Of a DNA stretch of 6,259 bases, positions 1 through 6,259 are shown one piece after another. Source of the DNA: a bacterium (GTDB lineage: Bacteria; Coprothermobacterota; Coprothermobacteria; Coprothermobacterales; JAADFF01). Every line of letters begins with the position of its first letter. Within the stretch, counting starts at the first letter, position 1. Position numbers and translations under genes: made by a program. Where the stretch lies: positions 1-6,259 of the forward strand of contig JAMORD010000112.1 of NCBI GenBank assembly GCA_027063755.1, written 5' to 3'. The notes under the pieces are model-generated. The model was not told the origin of the DNA. It worked only from the letters and a program-made list of their open reading frames with translations, and made no database searches.

Positions 1-159
1 CATATCCATATTGGCAAGATGTGTCTTCTCCTTGGCCTCTTCTACAGCATCTAAATAATATGGGATGGCAACCGCAATAAGAACAGAAAGAATTATCACA
101 ACAACAATAGACTCAATTAGAGAATATCCTCTCTGCCCTCTCTTAGAGATCCCAAACAA
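1..159 (-). CDS. Type IV prepilin-like protein, N-terminal part (cut by left edge)
   Basis: The first 53 codons are present and the frame is still open at base 1. The protein begins with a short basic leader (SKRGQRG), followed by YSLIES and then about 16 hydrophobic residues (IVVVIILSVLIAVAIP). This is the class III signal of type IV pilins and type II secretion pseudopilins. The prepilin peptidase would cut after Gly11, leaving Tyr at +1 and the conserved Glu at +5. After IPYY comes a charged helix (LDAVEEAKEK), as in the pilin alpha-1 stalk. The start is taken as TTG at 159-157: an in-frame TAA lies two codons upstream at 165-163, and no other usual start precedes the leader. A G-rich stretch (174-170) may act as a weak ribosome site. 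The gene overlaps the end of dtd by 17 bases, so it is probably translated by coupling. The C-terminal domain is off the window, so major pilin, minor pilin and pseudopilin cannot be told apart. Confidence 0.8.
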   Translation of the reverse strand, partial: MFGISKRGQRGYSLIESIVVVIILSVLIAVAIPYYLDAVEEAKEKTHLANMDM

Positions 160-607
160 TGTTTACCGGCCCCCAAGAAACTGCATCTATTTCCATATCG
201 GCACCAAAAGTTCCATGAATAAACGGTAATTTCTCAGCCTCCATAGCATGAATAAACATTTGTTCCAAACGAACATACAATTTCTCGGCCAGTTCTGGTT
301 TTAGTGCCTCTGTAAAAGATGGCCTTTTACCACGAGAGATATCTGCATATAAAGTAAAGTTGCTCACGAGGACCATACCACCTCTAATATCTTTTATGGA
401 TAAATTCATCTTTCCATTTTTATCGGGAAATACCCTAAGACCTATTAACTTATTAACAACCTTGGTAAACACTTTATCCCAATCACATCTTTCACCATCA
501 GCATTAGAAAAGCCTACATACACAACCAAACCTTTGTTAATAAAACCTTTATCCTCTCCATTTACTGTGAGAGATGCCTTAGAAACCCTCTGGATAATCA
601 TTCTCAT
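143..607 (-). CDS. dtd: D-aminoacyl-tRNA deacylase (DTD)
   Basis: This cytoplasmic homodimeric enzyme hydrolyses D-amino acids (and glycine mischarged on tRNA-Ala) from tRNA, keeping D-residues out of translation. At 154 residues it has the usual family length. It opens with the typical MR-(M)IIQRVSKASLTV strand, followed by GLVVYVGF, KVVNKLIGLRVFPD, GKMNLS and RGKRPSFTEA, all at the expected places. The active-site strand reads VSNFTLYAD (81-89), where most homologs have SQFTLxAD. The C-terminal Gly-cisPro motif reads SWGPVN (144-149) instead of NxGPVT; Gly146 and Pro147, which screen chirality, are kept. The start ATG overlaps the relA stop as ATGA, which indicates translational coupling. 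MR-initial sequences are usual in the family, so I prefer the first Met to Met3. A GGGGGAAG stretch lies upstream inside relA. The family call is firm; the altered SQ motif is the only oddity. Confidence 0.95.
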   Translation of the reverse strand: MRMIIQRVSKASLTVNGEDKGFINKGLVVYVGFSNADGERCDWDKVFTKVVNKLIGLRVFPDKNGKMNLSIKDIRGGMVLVSNFTLYADISRGKRPSFTEALKPELAEKLYVRLEQMFIHAMEAEKLPFIHGTFGADMEIDAVSWGPVNIVWDL

Positions 608-3039
608 CGTCTCATCTTCCCCCTTTTCACACGCTCAACTCCTCTAATTTTTAGTAGCTTTCTTCTGACAGCGTGGTATTCGCCAACATCTTTCAATGGT
701 ACCACAAGTTCTATTACAGTCATGCCATCGCGTTTACGGAAATATGTCTTTATACGGGAAATATTTTTATCAAAGGAAGCCAGTTCCTTAGCAATATCAA
801 GTAAAAGCCCTTTCCTATCCCATGTGTCAAGAATAAGCTTAGTCGGATAAGCTCCATCCGAATCCTTGAGATAATCCAGTTCATCCCAAGAAACCTTAAC
901 AAGCCTATCAGGATGAGCACTTTTCATAAGCCCCTTCAAGACAGGACAGCCTTTCTTGTGCACAACAATTCCTTTTCCCGTCGTCACCCAACCTACAATA
1001 TCCTCTCCAGGCAAAGGCTGACAACATGAAGCCCTTGAAAGATAAAAAGAAGTTTTTCTTTTTGTCTTCGGAGCATCCACAATATTTATTTCGGCATCTT
1101 TATTTTTTACAAATTCGCATAATCCCAAATCCCTTAATACATCTTTGACAAAATTGGTAATAGCAGAAGATACCATAGCCTCTATAGATTGACCTTTCCG
1201 ATCGGGCGATTTAACCCCCGATATAATCCCTTTTTTCAGTCGAGCCAATTTTATATACAGATCTTGTAAAGTCCACTTTTGGTTCGTATCTACAGCCTCT
1301 TTAAACTTGGCAATATCTACCCCTAACCTGTGCAACACTTTCTCAAGCAGTTGTTTACCTTCTCTAAGTTCTTCCTCTCTACGAAGTTTCCTGAAATAAC
1401 CGCGTATTTTGTCCCTTGCCCTACTACTTTTAACAAAATATAACCAATCCCTCTTAGGACCTTTAGCCGTTTTGGAAGTAATAATCTCCACCTGATCTCC
1501 AGATTGAAGCTGATAATCTAAGGGAACTAATTTACCATTTACCTTAGCAGCTGTACAACGGTGCCCTACTTCTGTATGAATTGCATAAGCAAAATCAACT
1601 GGTGTAGCACCTTCTGGCAGAAATATGGCCTGTCCTTTAGGAGTAAATACCATTATTTCATCGGCAAAGAGTTGTTGTTCTATCTCTTTGTGAAGAGGAT
1701 CTTCTCCCCATGTCTGGAAAATAGATGACAATTTTTCGCGCATGGCTTCAACAATTTTCAGTTCTTCTACAGTAACCTCTCCTTCTTTATAAGCCCAATG
1801 TGCTGCTACACCAAATTCTGCTTCTTTATGCATATCTATAGTTCGTATTTGCACTTCCAATGGCTCTCCTGCCCCATCAAAGATTGTAGTATGAAGAGAA
1901 CGATAGCCATTAGGCTTCGGACGACTAATAAAATCTTTAAATCTATCGGGTATGGAAGTGTACAAAGAGTGAACAACCCCTAATACCTGATAACACAACT
2001 CTGGGGGAACTTCTTCATCTTTTGGGGTTTCCCAATCAAGAATAACTCTCACCCCAACAAGATCATATATCTCATCAAACGACTTACCAAGGCTTTCCAT
2101 TTTCCTATAAATACTGGGGACACTCTTTACACGATATTTCACAATTGGAACAATACCATGTGGAGCCATAGCCTCAGCTGTATGAACTCGTATATTTTCT
2201 ATAACCTCTTTTATCTGTTCTCTCCGTCCCTTGATTTTATCTATGACCCTTTTACGAATAAACTCATATTCGTGGGGATAAAGTGTTTTAAAAGACAGTT
2301 TTTCAAGCTCGGTTTTTATCATATAGATACCGAGCCTCTGTGCCAGTGGCACATAAACTTCCATAGTCTCCCGTGCAATAATCTTTCTCTTCTCCTCAGG
2401 CATAAATATTATCGTTCGCATATTATGAAGTCTATCCGCAAGTTTCAAAAATGCCACACGAGGTTCTTGGGCTATATTAATAAGCAGCTTTCTAATGGCC
2501 TTTCTCTTAACCTGGGCTTTTGAAGCAACGATATTCTGATCATTTCTCTCACTGGCTGTAAGTTTTGTAACACCATCTACCATCTTGGCAACAAAGGTTC
2601 CAAATTTTTCCCTAATATCATCCAAACTAACATCGGGATTATCCTCTACACTATCATGAAGAAGTGCAGCTTGTATGGTAGAAACATCTGCTTGAAATTC
2701 AGACAGAATAATCGCAACGGCTACTGTGTGAACAATATAAGGCTCCCCACTCCTACGTTTTTGATAGCGATGCACCTTTTCCATGAAATTATAGGCTTTA
2801 AGTACTTCCTGAATATCACTGGAAGACATATAAGATAAGGCTTTAACTAATCTACTCCATAAAATCGCACTGTACAGTTTATACAAGTAGTCATCAAGCA
2901 AGTAGGCAGGTATATTAAACTTCGGAGTAGATACCTCAATATTTTCTGGTACTAAACGAGAAGGGATGCCTTCATATACAGGCATCCCTTCTTTTAACAC
3001 CTCTTTTATTTTATTAGAAGCGGACCATGCTGATAACAT
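604..3039 (-). CDS. relA: Bifunctional (p)ppGpp synthetase/hydrolase, RelA/SpoT (RSH) family
   Basis: Long RSH protein that makes (p)ppGpp from ATP and GDP/GTP and hydrolyses it, acting on the ribosome in the stringent response. The hydrolase domain (about 85-235) keeps the metal-site residues His104, HD 128-129, ED 132-133 and Asp202 in LADRLHNMRT. The synthetase domain (about 280-420) has Arg303, Lys305, Asp326, the NGYRSLHTT loop (Tyr379) and catalytic Glu395 in EVQIRT. RFKD at 366-369 is the RXKD form seen in bifunctional enzymes, not the EXDD of synthetase-only RelA. TGS follows at about 460-522 (His488), then a helical region, the Cys-rich zinc-finger-like segment (CC 672-673, VHKKGC to 698) and a C-terminal ACT domain (about 735-805). 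At 811 residues it is longer than the usual 720-750, mostly from about 55 extra N-terminal residues. The ATG start overlaps apt by 26 bases and has only a weak GAAAG site; GTG at codon 14 and ATG at codon 19 are alternatives. rel or spoT would be equally valid names. Confidence 0.95.
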   Translation of the reverse strand: MLSAWSASNKIKEVLKEGMPVYEGIPSRLVPENIEVSTPKFNIPAYLLDDYLYKLYSAILWSRLVKALSYMSSSDIQEVLKAYNFMEKVHRYQKRRSGEPYIVHTVAVAIILSEFQADVSTIQAALLHDSVEDNPDVSLDDIREKFGTFVAKMVDGVTKLTASERNDQNIVASKAQVKRKAIRKLLINIAQEPRVAFLKLADRLHNMRTIIFMPEEKRKIIARETMEVYVPLAQRLGIYMIKTELEKLSFKTLYPHEYEFIRKRVIDKIKGRREQIKEVIENIRVHTAEAMAPHGIVPIVKYRVKSVPSIYRKMESLGKSFDEIYDLVGVRVILDWETPKDEEVPPELCYQVLGVVHSLYTSIPDRFKDFISRPKPNGYRSLHTTIFDGAGEPLEVQIRTIDMHKEAEFGVAAHWAYKEGEVTVEELKIVEAMREKLSSIFQTWGEDPLHKEIEQQLFADEIMVFTPKGQAIFLPEGATPVDFAYAIHTEVGHRCTAAKVNGKLVPLDYQLQSGDQVEIITSKTAKGPKRDWLYFVKSSRARDKIRGYFRKLRREEELREGKQLLEKVLHRLGVDIAKFKEAVDTNQKWTLQDLYIKLARLKKGIISGVKSPDRKGQSIEAMVSSAITNFVKDVLRDLGLCEFVKNKDAEINIVDAPKTKRKTSFYLSRASCCQPLPGEDIVGWVTTGKGIVVHKKGCPVLKGLMKSAHPDRLVKVSWDELDYLKDSDGAYPTKLILDTWDRKGLLLDIAKELASFDKNISRIKTYFRKRDGMTVIELVVPLKDVGEYHAVRRKLLKIRGVERVKRGKMRR
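2959..2992 (-). repeat. Perfect 13-bp inverted repeat (hairpin) near the 5' end of relA
   Basis: The arms 2959-2971 and 2980-2992 are exact reverse complements (AGAAGGGATGCCT and AGGCATCCCTTCT) around an 8-base loop. In the relA mRNA this would be a 13-bp GC-containing hairpin covering codons 16-27, starting 22 bases after the apt stop. The 5' arm contains ATG codon 19 and the GAAGGG before it, so that alternative start would be buried when the hairpin forms. On the relA strand no U-run follows, so it is not a usual intrinsic terminator in the operon direction. The encoded peptide is itself a near repeat (EGMP, EGIP), which may partly explain the symmetry. A role in relA translation or mRNA processing is inference only. 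Confidence 0.6.
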
Positions 3040-3535
3040 TGTAATCTTTCAACTTCTCACGACCATGTAGGAATTCAAGCTCAACAAAGAATAAGAATCC
3101 TGCAACCTTACCACCAATCTTCTCAATAAGTTTGGCAGCATGGAGTGCTGTTCCACCTGTGGCAAGCACATCATCAACAATAATAACACTCTCACCTGGC
3201 TCCACAGAGTCAACATGAACCTCAATGCAATCAACCCCATATTCAAGATCATAACATTCACTCTCTTTGGTATAGGGAAGCTTACCTTTCTTTCGGAGCA
3301 TTATAAATCCCTTGCCAAGCTTGTAAGCAATAGGAGCACCAAAGACAAAACCACGGGACTCAATACCGGCAATCTTTGAAAACTCTATGCCATCAAGAGC
3401 AGAAGTCATCTCGTCTATTAAGAATTGATAGGCTTCTGCATGTTGAAGCACAGGTGTAATATCTTTAAAGAGAACACCTGGTTTCGGAAAATCAGGCACA
3501 TCTCTTATCAGTGCCTTTACTTCACCTATTGTCAC
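3014..3535 (-). CDS. apt: Adenine phosphoribosyltransferase
   Basis: Purine salvage enzyme converting adenine and PRPP to AMP and pyrophosphate in the cytoplasm. At 173 residues it has the standard Apt length. Visible signatures are the N-terminal IRDVPDFPKPGVLFKDITP (9-27), GIESRGFVFGAPIA (57-70), the flexible-loop region RKKGKLPYTKES (81-92), LEYGVD, the PRPP-binding motif VIIVDDVLATGGTA (117-130) with its paired Asp residues, and the C-terminal ELEFLHGREKL (152-162). The start is GTG at 3535, seven bases after a strong GGGGAGGAG site. A nearby ATG (3542-3540) is in another frame and stops after six codons. The gene lies 16 bases after secF and runs 26 bases into relA. Apt next to an RSH gene is a common arrangement in Firmicutes and other bacteria, and both act on purine nucleotide pools. 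Confidence 0.97.
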   Translation of the reverse strand: MTIGEVKALIRDVPDFPKPGVLFKDITPVLQHAEAYQFLIDEMTSALDGIEFSKIAGIESRGFVFGAPIAYKLGKGFIMLRKKGKLPYTKESECYDLEYGVDCIEVHVDSVEPGESVIIVDDVLATGGTALHAAKLIEKIGGKVAGFLFFVELEFLHGREKLKDYNVISMVRF

Positions 3536-3551: not shown

Positions 3552-4487
3552 TTACTTTTTGGACTTTCTCTGTCCCTTCTTATTTCCCTGTCTCTTGGCC
3601 TGCCAGTTTCTAATATCTACAAGCAGAGGAGATGCTATAAAAATAGAAGAATATGTACCGGCAAGAATACCCACACTAAGCCCCAGACCATAAGAGAGAA
3701 GTAGCCTACCTCCAACTATAAGTAATGCCAGTGCGGCAAGCAGTGTTGTAACAGATGTGTTGAAAGATCTACGGAATGTAGACAATATAGACTTGTTAAC
3801 CAGCTGCTCAAACTGCATACCTCTATATATATGCTTGTTCTCACGAATTCTATCAAGTACAACAATTGTATCCATAACAGAATAACCTACAAGTATTAGC
3901 ACGACAGCAACAAACGAGCTGTCAATAGCCACCCTTGTCATAGCAAATACACCAAGCAATACAAGCACATCGTGAATCAGCGCTGCAATGGTAACAAGAC
4001 CATAGATAAATTCAAATCTTATACTTATATATATGAGAATCAAAACTAAGGCAATTATGGTAGCTGTAAATGCATTCCAAATTAATGTTTTTGCTACAGA
4101 TGGACCAACAAATTCTTGCCTAACGATCTGCTTAAAATCTGGAAGCGTCTTGACAAGATTAATGATTTTATCTCTCTCTTTACCGTTTGTAGCTTTAACC
4201 CTAAGCATCACAGTATTTTCAGGAGAGTCAACAGCCTTTACCTCAATCTTGCCATAACCGGCCTTCTGGAATGTCTCTCTAATAATCTGAAAATCGGGGG
4301 TCTTATTGAACTGAACTTCAAGAACAACACCACCGGTAAAGTCAACACCCAGATTAAAGGGTGCACCTATTGTTGCCATATTGATAATCATGGCAATGAT
4401 ACCTATGGCAATAACCGTTAGAGATATGGCGTAAAACCTTTTTCTATTTCCTACTATATTCCAATTTCCGACCTTAATAATTTCCAC
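3552..4487 (-). CDS. secF: Protein translocase subunit SecF
   Basis: Inner-membrane RND-type subunit that pairs with SecD and uses the ion motive force to pull secreted proteins off the SecYEG channel. The 311 residues fit the family. TM1 is at about 17-38, then LGVDFTGGVVLEVQF (46-60), the standard first-periplasmic-domain motif. A small extracytoplasmic domain (to about 130) follows, then five more membrane segments (about 137-157, 160-182, 190-212, 244-262, 266-289). The charged pair expected for ion coupling is present: Asp206 in GYSVMDT and Arg240 in TFRRSFNTSVTTL. GTYSSIFIASPLL is canonical, and the tail is very basic (KRQGNKKGQRKSKK). The usual Asn before the TM4 Asp is Met here (GYSVMDT, not GYSxNDT). 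The start is GTG at 4487; an in-frame TGA just upstream (4496-4494) rules out a longer form. It sits 16 bases after secD. Confidence 0.97.
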   Translation of the reverse strand: MEIIKVGNWNIVGNRKRFYAISLTVIAIGIIAMIINMATIGAPFNLGVDFTGGVVLEVQFNKTPDFQIIRETFQKAGYGKIEVKAVDSPENTVMLRVKATNGKERDKIINLVKTLPDFKQIVRQEFVGPSVAKTLIWNAFTATIIALVLILIYISIRFEFIYGLVTIAALIHDVLVLLGVFAMTRVAIDSSFVAVVLILVGYSVMDTIVVLDRIRENKHIYRGMQFEQLVNKSILSTFRRSFNTSVTTLLAALALLIVGGRLLLSYGLGLSVGILAGTYSSIFIASPLLVDIRNWQAKRQGNKKGQRKSKK

Positions 4488-4503: not shown

Positions 4504-5868
4504 TTACGCTGCAGTAGTGCTCTGCTGAGTTTTCTTCCTTGCGGGAAGCATCTCCATCAAGCTCCTCAGCACCATGAGGGATGTAAACACACCTAAGATC
4601 GTACCTATAGCCAGGGTAATAGCAAAACCTCTGATGGTAGGAGCACCAAACCAGTAAAGAACAAGAGCGGAAATCAATGTAGATGCGTTAGAGTCAAGGA
4701 TAGTAGGTGTAGATCTGCTAAATGCCCTTCTTAGAGCCGTGCGCCAGCTCTTCCCTGCAGAAAGCTCTTCCTTAAGTCGCTCAAAGATAATAACAGAACC
4801 GTCAACAGCCATACCAACTGAGAGAATGATACCTCCAATACCCGGCAATGTCAAAACAGCCTGGAAGAGCACTAGTGTTGCAAGATCCATAATGAGGAAT
4901 ACAACAAGACCAATAGAAGAAATGAGTCCCCATAATCCATAATTCAAAGTCATCCAGATAACAACCAAGATAAACGCCAGAATACCAGCCCTTACACCGG
5001 CTTTAAGGGCATCTTCACCTATAGAAGGACCTACATATCTTACTTCCGCAATCTCAACACGGGCCGGCAATGCACCACCCTGCAACAAAGCTGCAAGTTT
5101 TTTCGCCTCATCAAGTGTAAATTTACCTGTAATAACAGCCTTTCCTCCTGTAATCACACTCTGAACAACAGGCGCACTGATAATTTTTCCATCAAGAACT
5201 ATAGGAATGGGTTTACCCAAATATTTACTTGTTATCTCGGCAAACTTCTTTGCTCCTTCATCATTAAACTCAAGATAGACAGCGTAATAAGCGCTGTTAT
5301 TCTGATCTATACCAGCATATGCCTTTACAAGATCTTTACCAGTAAGAAGCACCTGCTCACCTGTTGGATCTCTAAATTCAAGTACTGCAGGCTTACCAAG
5401 TAAATCTACAATATCGTCTGGTGTAAGATTACCACCTTTGATATCAAGTGGTATTTCCATAATAATTCTATTGGCAACAGCCTTATCACGGTATATAACA
5501 ACCTCACTAAGACCGAGTGCATTGACACGATTTTCAAGTACCTTAATGAGCTCATCTACTTCCTGTGGTGTTAGCTGTTTCTGAGTAGCTGTAGAAGCCG
5601 TCTCTAGTGGAAATGCCTCCAAAACAACATGAACACCACCCTTAATATCCAGACCATACCTTAGCCTTAAAGATGAGGATTTTTTTGTCTTACCCTCCGT
5701 GGTAGTAGAGGTTGAAGATGTTGGTGCAGAAGTACCTGTAAGATTTATAGTTGACTGTTCAACAGTGGGCTTGCTGCCAAAATCAATAACACCCAAGGCA
5801 ACAAGATCTACAAACAATGCAATCAAAACCAGAATAGTGACGATTGCAAGTCTCAGCCCCTTACTCAT
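4504..5868 (-). CDS. secD: Protein translocase subunit SecD
   Basis: Partner of SecF in Sec-dependent export, membrane-bound with a large extracytoplasmic P1 domain. At 454 residues it matches the shorter SecD form, not the roughly 615-residue E. coli one. TM1 is at 7-28. After a Ser/Thr-rich linker (39-66) comes YGLDIKGGVHVVLE (71-84), the family's D-x-x-GG motif. P1 then includes NRVNALGLSE (113-122) and the base and head subdomains, through GGALPARVEI (264-273). Five membrane segments follow (about 291-309, 313-335, 342-364, 393-410, 414-436). The TM4 aspartate needed for ion coupling is Asp356 in VDGSVIIFERLKEEL, where VDANV is usual. TILDSNASTLISAL and FAITLAIGTILGVFTS are typical. The ATG start has a very strong ribosome site. 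yajC, which usually precedes secD, is not between it and tgt. Confidence 0.97.
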   Translation of the reverse strand: MSKGLRLAIVTILVLIALFVDLVALGVIDFGSKPTVEQSTINLTGTSAPTSSTSTTTEGKTKKSSSLRLRYGLDIKGGVHVVLEAFPLETASTATQKQLTPQEVDELIKVLENRVNALGLSEVVIYRDKAVANRIIMEIPLDIKGGNLTPDDIVDLLGKPAVLEFRDPTGEQVLLTGKDLVKAYAGIDQNNSAYYAVYLEFNDEGAKKFAEITSKYLGKPIPIVLDGKIISAPVVQSVITGGKAVITGKFTLDEAKKLAALLQGGALPARVEIAEVRYVGPSIGEDALKAGVRAGILAFILVVIWMTLNYGLWGLISSIGLVVFLIMDLATLVLFQAVLTLPGIGGIILSVGMAVDGSVIIFERLKEELSAGKSWRTALRRAFSRSTPTILDSNASTLISALVLYWFGAPTIRGFAITLAIGTILGVFTSLMVLRSLMEMLPARKKTQQSTTAA

Positions 5869-5919: not shown

Positions 5920-5948
5920 ATTATATCACTTTGCAGACCATCTTTCCA
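5920..5948 (-). promoter_or_regulatory. Candidate sigma-70-type promoter for the secD operon
   Basis: A perfect -10 hexamer TATAAT (5925-5920) lies just past the tgt stop. A 4-of-6 -35 match, TGGAAA (5948-5943), is 17 bases upstream inside the end of tgt. Initiation would fall around 5912-5914, leaving a leader of about 45 bases before secD. It could drive secD through the prepilin gene independently of tgt. A hexamer match in AT-rich DNA can arise by chance, so this is a candidate only. Confidence 0.4.
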
Positions 5949-6259
5949 CAAAGTCTTGCTTAAATTCTGCAAATGTTCCATCTTTTATGTGCTTCCTGAC
6001 ATCTTCCATAAGAAGTGTCATAAACGCCAAATTGATAAGAGTTGCCACCCTATAACCCAACATCTCCTTTGTTTTAAACAGATGATGAAGATATGCAAGC
6101 GTATACCCTTCCAAGAAAGAATATGTACTCTGGATACGCTCATCTATAGGACGAAAATCATCGGCATACTTGGCATGCCTAATTTTAATAGGACCGCTAA
6201 AGGTATAAATCAACCCATTACGGGCAACCCTCATAGGAAGCACACAGTCAAACATATCC
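5926..6259 (-). CDS. tgt: tRNA-guanine transglycosylase, C-terminal part (cut by right edge)
   Basis: Tgt swaps guanine 34 of tRNAs with GUN anticodons for preQ1 on the way to queuosine. Only the last 110 or so residues are present; the frame enters from the right as DMFDC. The Asp of MFDC is the family's catalytic nucleophile, and the following VLPMRVARNG keeps both Arg residues used in anticodon recognition (usual form VLPTRxxRNG). KIRHAKYADDFRPID, AYLHHLFKTKEMLG and the end INLAFMTLLMEDVRKHIKDGTF match the C-terminal part of the TIM barrel. The zinc site is missing: where the family has CxCxxC this protein reads SxYxxL, and the His of the usual T-E-H-N is Ile (TLIN). The protein stops at TGA 5928-5926, close to the normal family end. 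It may be a zinc-independent Tgt or a paralog of changed specificity. The family call is secure; activity is uncertain. Confidence 0.9.
   Translation of the reverse strand, partial: DMFDCVLPMRVARNGLIYTFSGPIKIRHAKYADDFRPIDERIQSTYSFLEGYTLAYLHHLFKTKEMLGYRVATLINLAFMTLLMEDVRKHIKDGTFAEFKQDFVERWSAK

Follow-up and report, generated by a model that had tools for sequence, protein, structure and literature searches.

A queuosine-operon tRNA-guanine transglycosylase without its zinc ligands in the Coprothermobacterales, most likely an active zinc-free enzyme

The window, meaning the whole 6,259-nucleotide stretch that was analysed, is a contig end (G000:C112) from a genome of the phylum Coprothermobacterota, and the tRNA-guanine transglycosylase gene tgt runs off this end. 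Six genes follow each other on the minus strand in the order tgt, secD, secF, apt, relA/spoT and dtd:

5926 to 6258, minus strand: 3' part of tgt, the C-terminal 110 residues of a Tgt of about 371 residues (open reading frame, PF01702 and TIGR00430/TIGR00449 matches)
4504 to 5868, minus strand: secD, directly downstream of tgt (Pfam SecD domains, synteny)
3552 to 4487, minus strand: secF (Pfam SecD_SecF_C)
3014 to 3535, minus strand: apt (NCBIfam TIGR01090 / NF002636 above cut-off)
604 to 3039, minus strand: relA/spoT (NCBIfam TIGR00691 above cut-off)
143 to 607, minus strand: dtd, D-aminoacyl-tRNA deacylase (NCBIfam TIGR00256 above cut-off)

The 110-residue part of Tgt encoded here matches PF01702 with an E-value of 6e-35 (Pfam). 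The remainder of the gene, preceded by queA and queH, was found on contig C167 (L001) of the same genome, and tgt sits in the conserved locus yebC-ruvCAB-queH-queA-tgt-secD-secF-apt-relA. Both contigs overlap exactly end to end over 292 nt with 97% identity (window positions 5968-6259 correspond to L001:2247-2538), and the break looks as expected of an assembly break at strain variation in a MAG. A genome-wide search for Tgt gave only two matches, namely the overlapping ends of this one gene, and no second or canonical tgt was found in the genome, which is about 88% complete. Paralogy, one of two explanations offered by the first-pass annotation of this DNA, was therefore rejected: the contig break divides a single gene into the two matches, and gene order at the locus agrees with that around the zinc-bearing tgt of the phylum.

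Within tgt, alignments place the following features:

6247 to 6249, minus strand: catalytic nucleophile Asp of MFDC (D280 in Z. mobilis)
6232 to 6234, minus strand: Met of MFDCVLPMR, canonically Thr (PTR; Thr285)
6112 to 6129, minus strand: former CxCxxC zinc loop, now S-T-Y-S-F-L (register set by AYLHHL)
6079 to 6105, minus strand: dimer hot-spot stretch YTLAYLHHL of the former zinc subdomain
6034 to 6036, minus strand: former His ligand (H349 in Z. mobilis), now Ile in ATLINLAF (aligned on INLAF/HNLxF)

The canonical ligands, which we take to be C318, C320, C323 and H349 in Zymomonas numbering, had been described as lost together, and the alignments on AYLHHL and INLAF bear this out: the three Cys positions are occupied by Ser (6127-6129), Tyr (6121-6123) and Leu (6112-6114), and the His position, 26 residues after the third Cys position as proposed, by Ile. 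The substitution of PMR for PTR beside the recognition Arg is likewise real. In this genus the former zinc loop exceeds the canonical length by two residues. The variant contig C167 reads S-A-C-S-F-L at the loop, where Cys occupies the second ligand position, and a second species of the genus (L027/L038; MAG Dictyoglomota L_MetaBat.91; Tgt identity 94%) has R-T-F-T-F-L and the same Ile. A sequencing error was ruled out, as the same loss occurs in the variant contig and in this other species (L038). No substitute Cys/His cluster was found elsewhere in the full-length Tgt of the nearest relative.

Every other feature tested marks the protein as a true Tgt. The nucleophile, reported earlier as conserved, is Asp in all 131 aligned rows, and the equivalents of the general base D102 and of D156 are kept, as is that of E339, whose role we take from the titles of PDB mutant entries. 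The pocket is of the preQ1 type, with Cys and Val aligned to C158 and V233, the preQ1 determinants of TGT (PMC3660597). At the dimer hot spot named in PMC5395182, the positions of W326, Y330 and H333 hold Tyr, Tyr and His and are kept. The full-length orthologue from the second species (L038) scores 421.8 bits against the TIGR00430 cut-off of 306.75 and 453 bits against PF01702; it stays below the cut-off of the archaeosine TgtA equivalog (124.7 versus 350 bits), and no DpdA match was reported for it. Only the Cys3His site, though usual in TIGR00430 members, is missing (S/Y/L/I). A Peregrinibacteria Tgt (L042) that likewise lacks the site reaches 440.4 bits against the same cut-off of 306.75, and the Cys3His site is usual yet not universal among members above cut-off.

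Could the gene be decaying or inactive, leaving the tRNA without its modification? A site regarded as essential has lost its four ligands, and the strain contigs differ in just two amino acids (T/A and Y/C), both inside the former zinc loop. In addition, E. coli TGT is called a zinc metalloprotein on the strength of ligand mutagenesis, according to the passage of PMC9508795 that cites Chong 1995; on this basis, zinc loss might impair activity. Against decay, dN/dS relative to L038 is 0.05 over 358 codons (dN 0.039, dS 0.77) and 0.055 in the window's part of tgt, and the frame is open in all nine genomes of the phylum, save for the contig break in this genome. Residues for catalysis, substrate and dimer contacts are retained, and the operon with queA and queH persists across two families. 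We consider decay very improbable. The two strain differences would fit relaxation confined to the loop of an otherwise constrained protein, although the numbers are small.

AlphaFold was given homologous sequences and often returns a family's fold regardless of how stable the protein is; here it predicts a normal TGT fold with a TIM barrel (pLDDT 92.3), and pLDDT is 95-98 in the blocks covering residues 291-360, the former zinc region. The model superimposes on Z. mobilis TGT (VIA-align) with a Z of about 51 and an rmsd of about 1.6 angstrom over about 365 residues. The former metal loop is predicted as a short helix (residues 301-306). Here, Ile, Phe, Phe and Leu of the loop, together with the Ile at the His position, may form a small hydrophobic core that replaces the metal.

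Two genes of the queuosine pathway, queA and queH, lie upstream of tgt. QueA, encoded beside tgt, scores above its cut-off in L038, and QueH is recognised upstream by Pfam (L001). QueD is present in the genus and in its sister family, encoded beside FolE2 (L096:2276-3185; L097, L098, L099). The suggestion that preQ1 genes be sought thus had a divided outcome: queA and queD were found, whereas none of the nine genomes searched in the phylum yielded QueF, and no convincing QueC was found in these nine, where the matches are weak and ATPase-like. Even so, queD adjoins folE2. The precursor transporter QueT occurs in the sister family (f2) and in a third family (f3), and G001 encodes a YhhQ-family transporter. 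With QueC and QueF not found and these transporters in place, the likely route is that preQ1 is salvaged and then used by Tgt, QueA and QueH in turn. No preQ1 riboswitch scored above the gathering threshold near the transporter or tgt loci.

A base that is probably salvaged, since QueC and QueF were not found, would also suit a specialised paralog or an enzyme with another substrate, for instance one that inserts queuine or, like DpdA, modifies DNA, and the PMR change adjoins the anticodon-contacting Arg. Such a role is nevertheless also very improbable: only one tgt was found in the genome, the C158 and V233 determinants are kept (PMC3660597), QueA, which acts on preQ1-tRNA, adjoins tgt, and L038 passes the TIGR00430 equivalog cut-off with no DpdA match reported.

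FolE2, the GTP cyclohydrolase beside queD, is of the zinc-independent type, and it is the one observation in favour of regarding the loss in Tgt as part of a general zinc-sparing lifestyle. We give this little credence, because the zinc motif of ribosomal protein L36 is kept in f2 and in the genus's own family (f1), that of S14 is kept in f1, and the CxxC motifs of IleRS are also kept.

The history of the loss was followed in nine genomes of the phylum, comprising f1, f2 (five genomes) and f3 (two genomes). The sister family f2 is probably Coprothermobacter and would include the cultured, completely sequenced Coprothermobacter proteolyticus. As the first-pass annotation proposed, relatives were checked for the loss. 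The second species of the genus shares it; in f2 Tgt, the zinc loop is deleted and Glu stands at the His position; Tgt of the more distant f3 (L025, L026) keeps CTCxVC plus His as well as PTR. The order yebC-ruvCAB-queH-(queA)-tgt-secD-secF-(apt)-relA is common to f1, f2 and f3, with ruvC undetected in one f3 genome, so that the genes are positional orthologues and the zinc site was lost in place. In f3 (L103, L104), queH and tgt were found at this locus and queA was not found there. When the zinc and PxR columns are left out of the alignment, the tree still joins f1 and f2 in a clade, with support of 100/97. Most simply, the zinc site was lost once, before f1 and f2 split.

The earlier annotation implied that the loss was peculiar to this gene; instead, the same set, or its three Cys, has been lost in several unrelated lineages. 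Peregrinibacteria-type Tgts are zinc-less in all 42 sequences read, a sample biased by one search peptide that contained the PM motif. One such gene (L061:4971-6068) lies on a contig titled Kiritimatiellales, which is probably mis-binned. One genome of the Altimarinota/Gracilibacteria (L040) has lost the zinc Cys set and kept the His. Loss of the three Cys with the His kept was likewise read in 29 of 30 Tgts of the G012 family (L188-L215, L021), which spans over 30 genera and forms a second large clade with an altered zinc site; the exception, L187, comes from an incomplete genome with two Tgt matches. In the phylum of G010, the zinc site is lost in 3/47 Tgts. Three genomes (L181, L182 and L185) have lost part or all of Cys3His and carry Leu at the C158 position, in a phylum whose other Tgts keep Cys3His. 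Other bacterial Tgts show the full ligand set in 30/31 cases, the exception (L021) being from G012 itself. On the tree, the zinc-site trait requires at least about six changes, and the strongly supported branches alone force three.

The PMR change is confined to zinc-less proteins: Met was found in 45 rows, all without CxCxxC, and in none of the 76 rows with it (0/76), a split (45/45 versus 0/76) that the search-peptide bias leaves unexplained. As three changes on the tree suffice to explain PMR, any coupling between PMR and metal loss rests on few independent events.

Complete ligand loss and PMR are common to the genus and the Peregrinibacteria, which raises horizontal transfer of the zinc-less PMR form between them, and a grouping of f1 with Peregrinibacteria passes the AU test without rejection (p 0.234). 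We hold transfer to be a slim prospect. The best tree pairs the genus with its sister family and places the Peregrinibacteria Tgt in a separate clade, the gene keeps the same ancestral order in three families, and the replacement residues are unlike (S/Y/L/I versus S/S/S/Q).

Altogether, the gene most likely encodes an ordinary, active, zinc-free Tgt of the preQ1 type, the sole one in its genome, whose zinc site was lost in the ancestor of the order; we put the probability of this reading at about 0.82. The analysis itself establishes the sequence, single copy, synteny, phylogeny, purifying selection and predicted fold. The earlier proposal of a zinc-free structural solution, as opposed to decay, is supported by the single copy in a queuosine operon, a dN/dS of about 0.05, the kept residues, the AlphaFold model and a loss conserved across the order. 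The enzyme, a tRNA-guanine(34) transglycosylase, would use the usual Asp nucleophile to replace guanine 34 with preQ1 in tRNAs that have GUN anticodons, and the products of the adjoining queA and queH would complete queuosine. After loss of the Cys3His site in the order's ancestor, protein packing would hold the subdomain instead. In the genus, the loop, longer by two residues, is predicted to form a short helix whose Ile, Phe/Tyr, Phe and Leu would pack with the Ile that replaces the His ligand; the sister family has deleted the loop instead. We infer an active, dimeric enzyme that binds no zinc and in which hydrophobic packing takes the metal's place.

Compared with Z. mobilis TGT (1PUD, 1Q2R) and E. 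coli TGT (COG0343 / TIGR00430), the predicted fold, nucleophile, general base, preQ1 determinants and dimer hot spot are the same, whereas the protein described here has no Cys3His, a loop longer by two residues, and Met for Thr285 (PMR). The f3 enzymes share the neighbourhood yebC-ruvCAB-queH-tgt-secDF-relA and differ by their CTCxVC plus His and PTR. Peregrinibacteria Tgts have likewise lost all four ligands and carry PMR, but with S/S/S/Q as replacements, and queA and queH were not found in the fetched flanks of their tgt. Structural zinc loss in a translation-related protein is also known from the C+/C- ribosomal proteins, e.g. S4 (PMC3087516); the S4 zinc and non-zinc forms are reported to spread horizontally, whereas here a single orthologous enzyme lost its site in place.

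TGT has been described as requiring zinc, and its zinc-binding domain as a hallmark that belongs to the scaffold for tRNA binding (PMC9508795, PMC6165067); no description of a natural zinc-free TGT was found in the open-access literature, to which the search was confined, subscription papers lying outside it. A broader reading, which we hold to be somewhat less likely than not, is that zinc is dispensable in bacterial TGT and that several phylum-level lineages are permanently zinc-free, having found separate structural substitutes; in certain lineages, the change of PTR to PMR might compensate beside the anticodon-binding Arg and retune tRNA recognition. In practice, zinc-less tgt genes would be mislabelled as non-functional by any motif annotation that insists on the Cys residues. 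The zinc-less variant recurs across lineages with testable stand-in structures, and with natural zinc-free orthologues at hand, one of them probably from Coprothermobacter proteolyticus, what the metal contributes to folding, dimer formation and tRNA binding could be tested directly.
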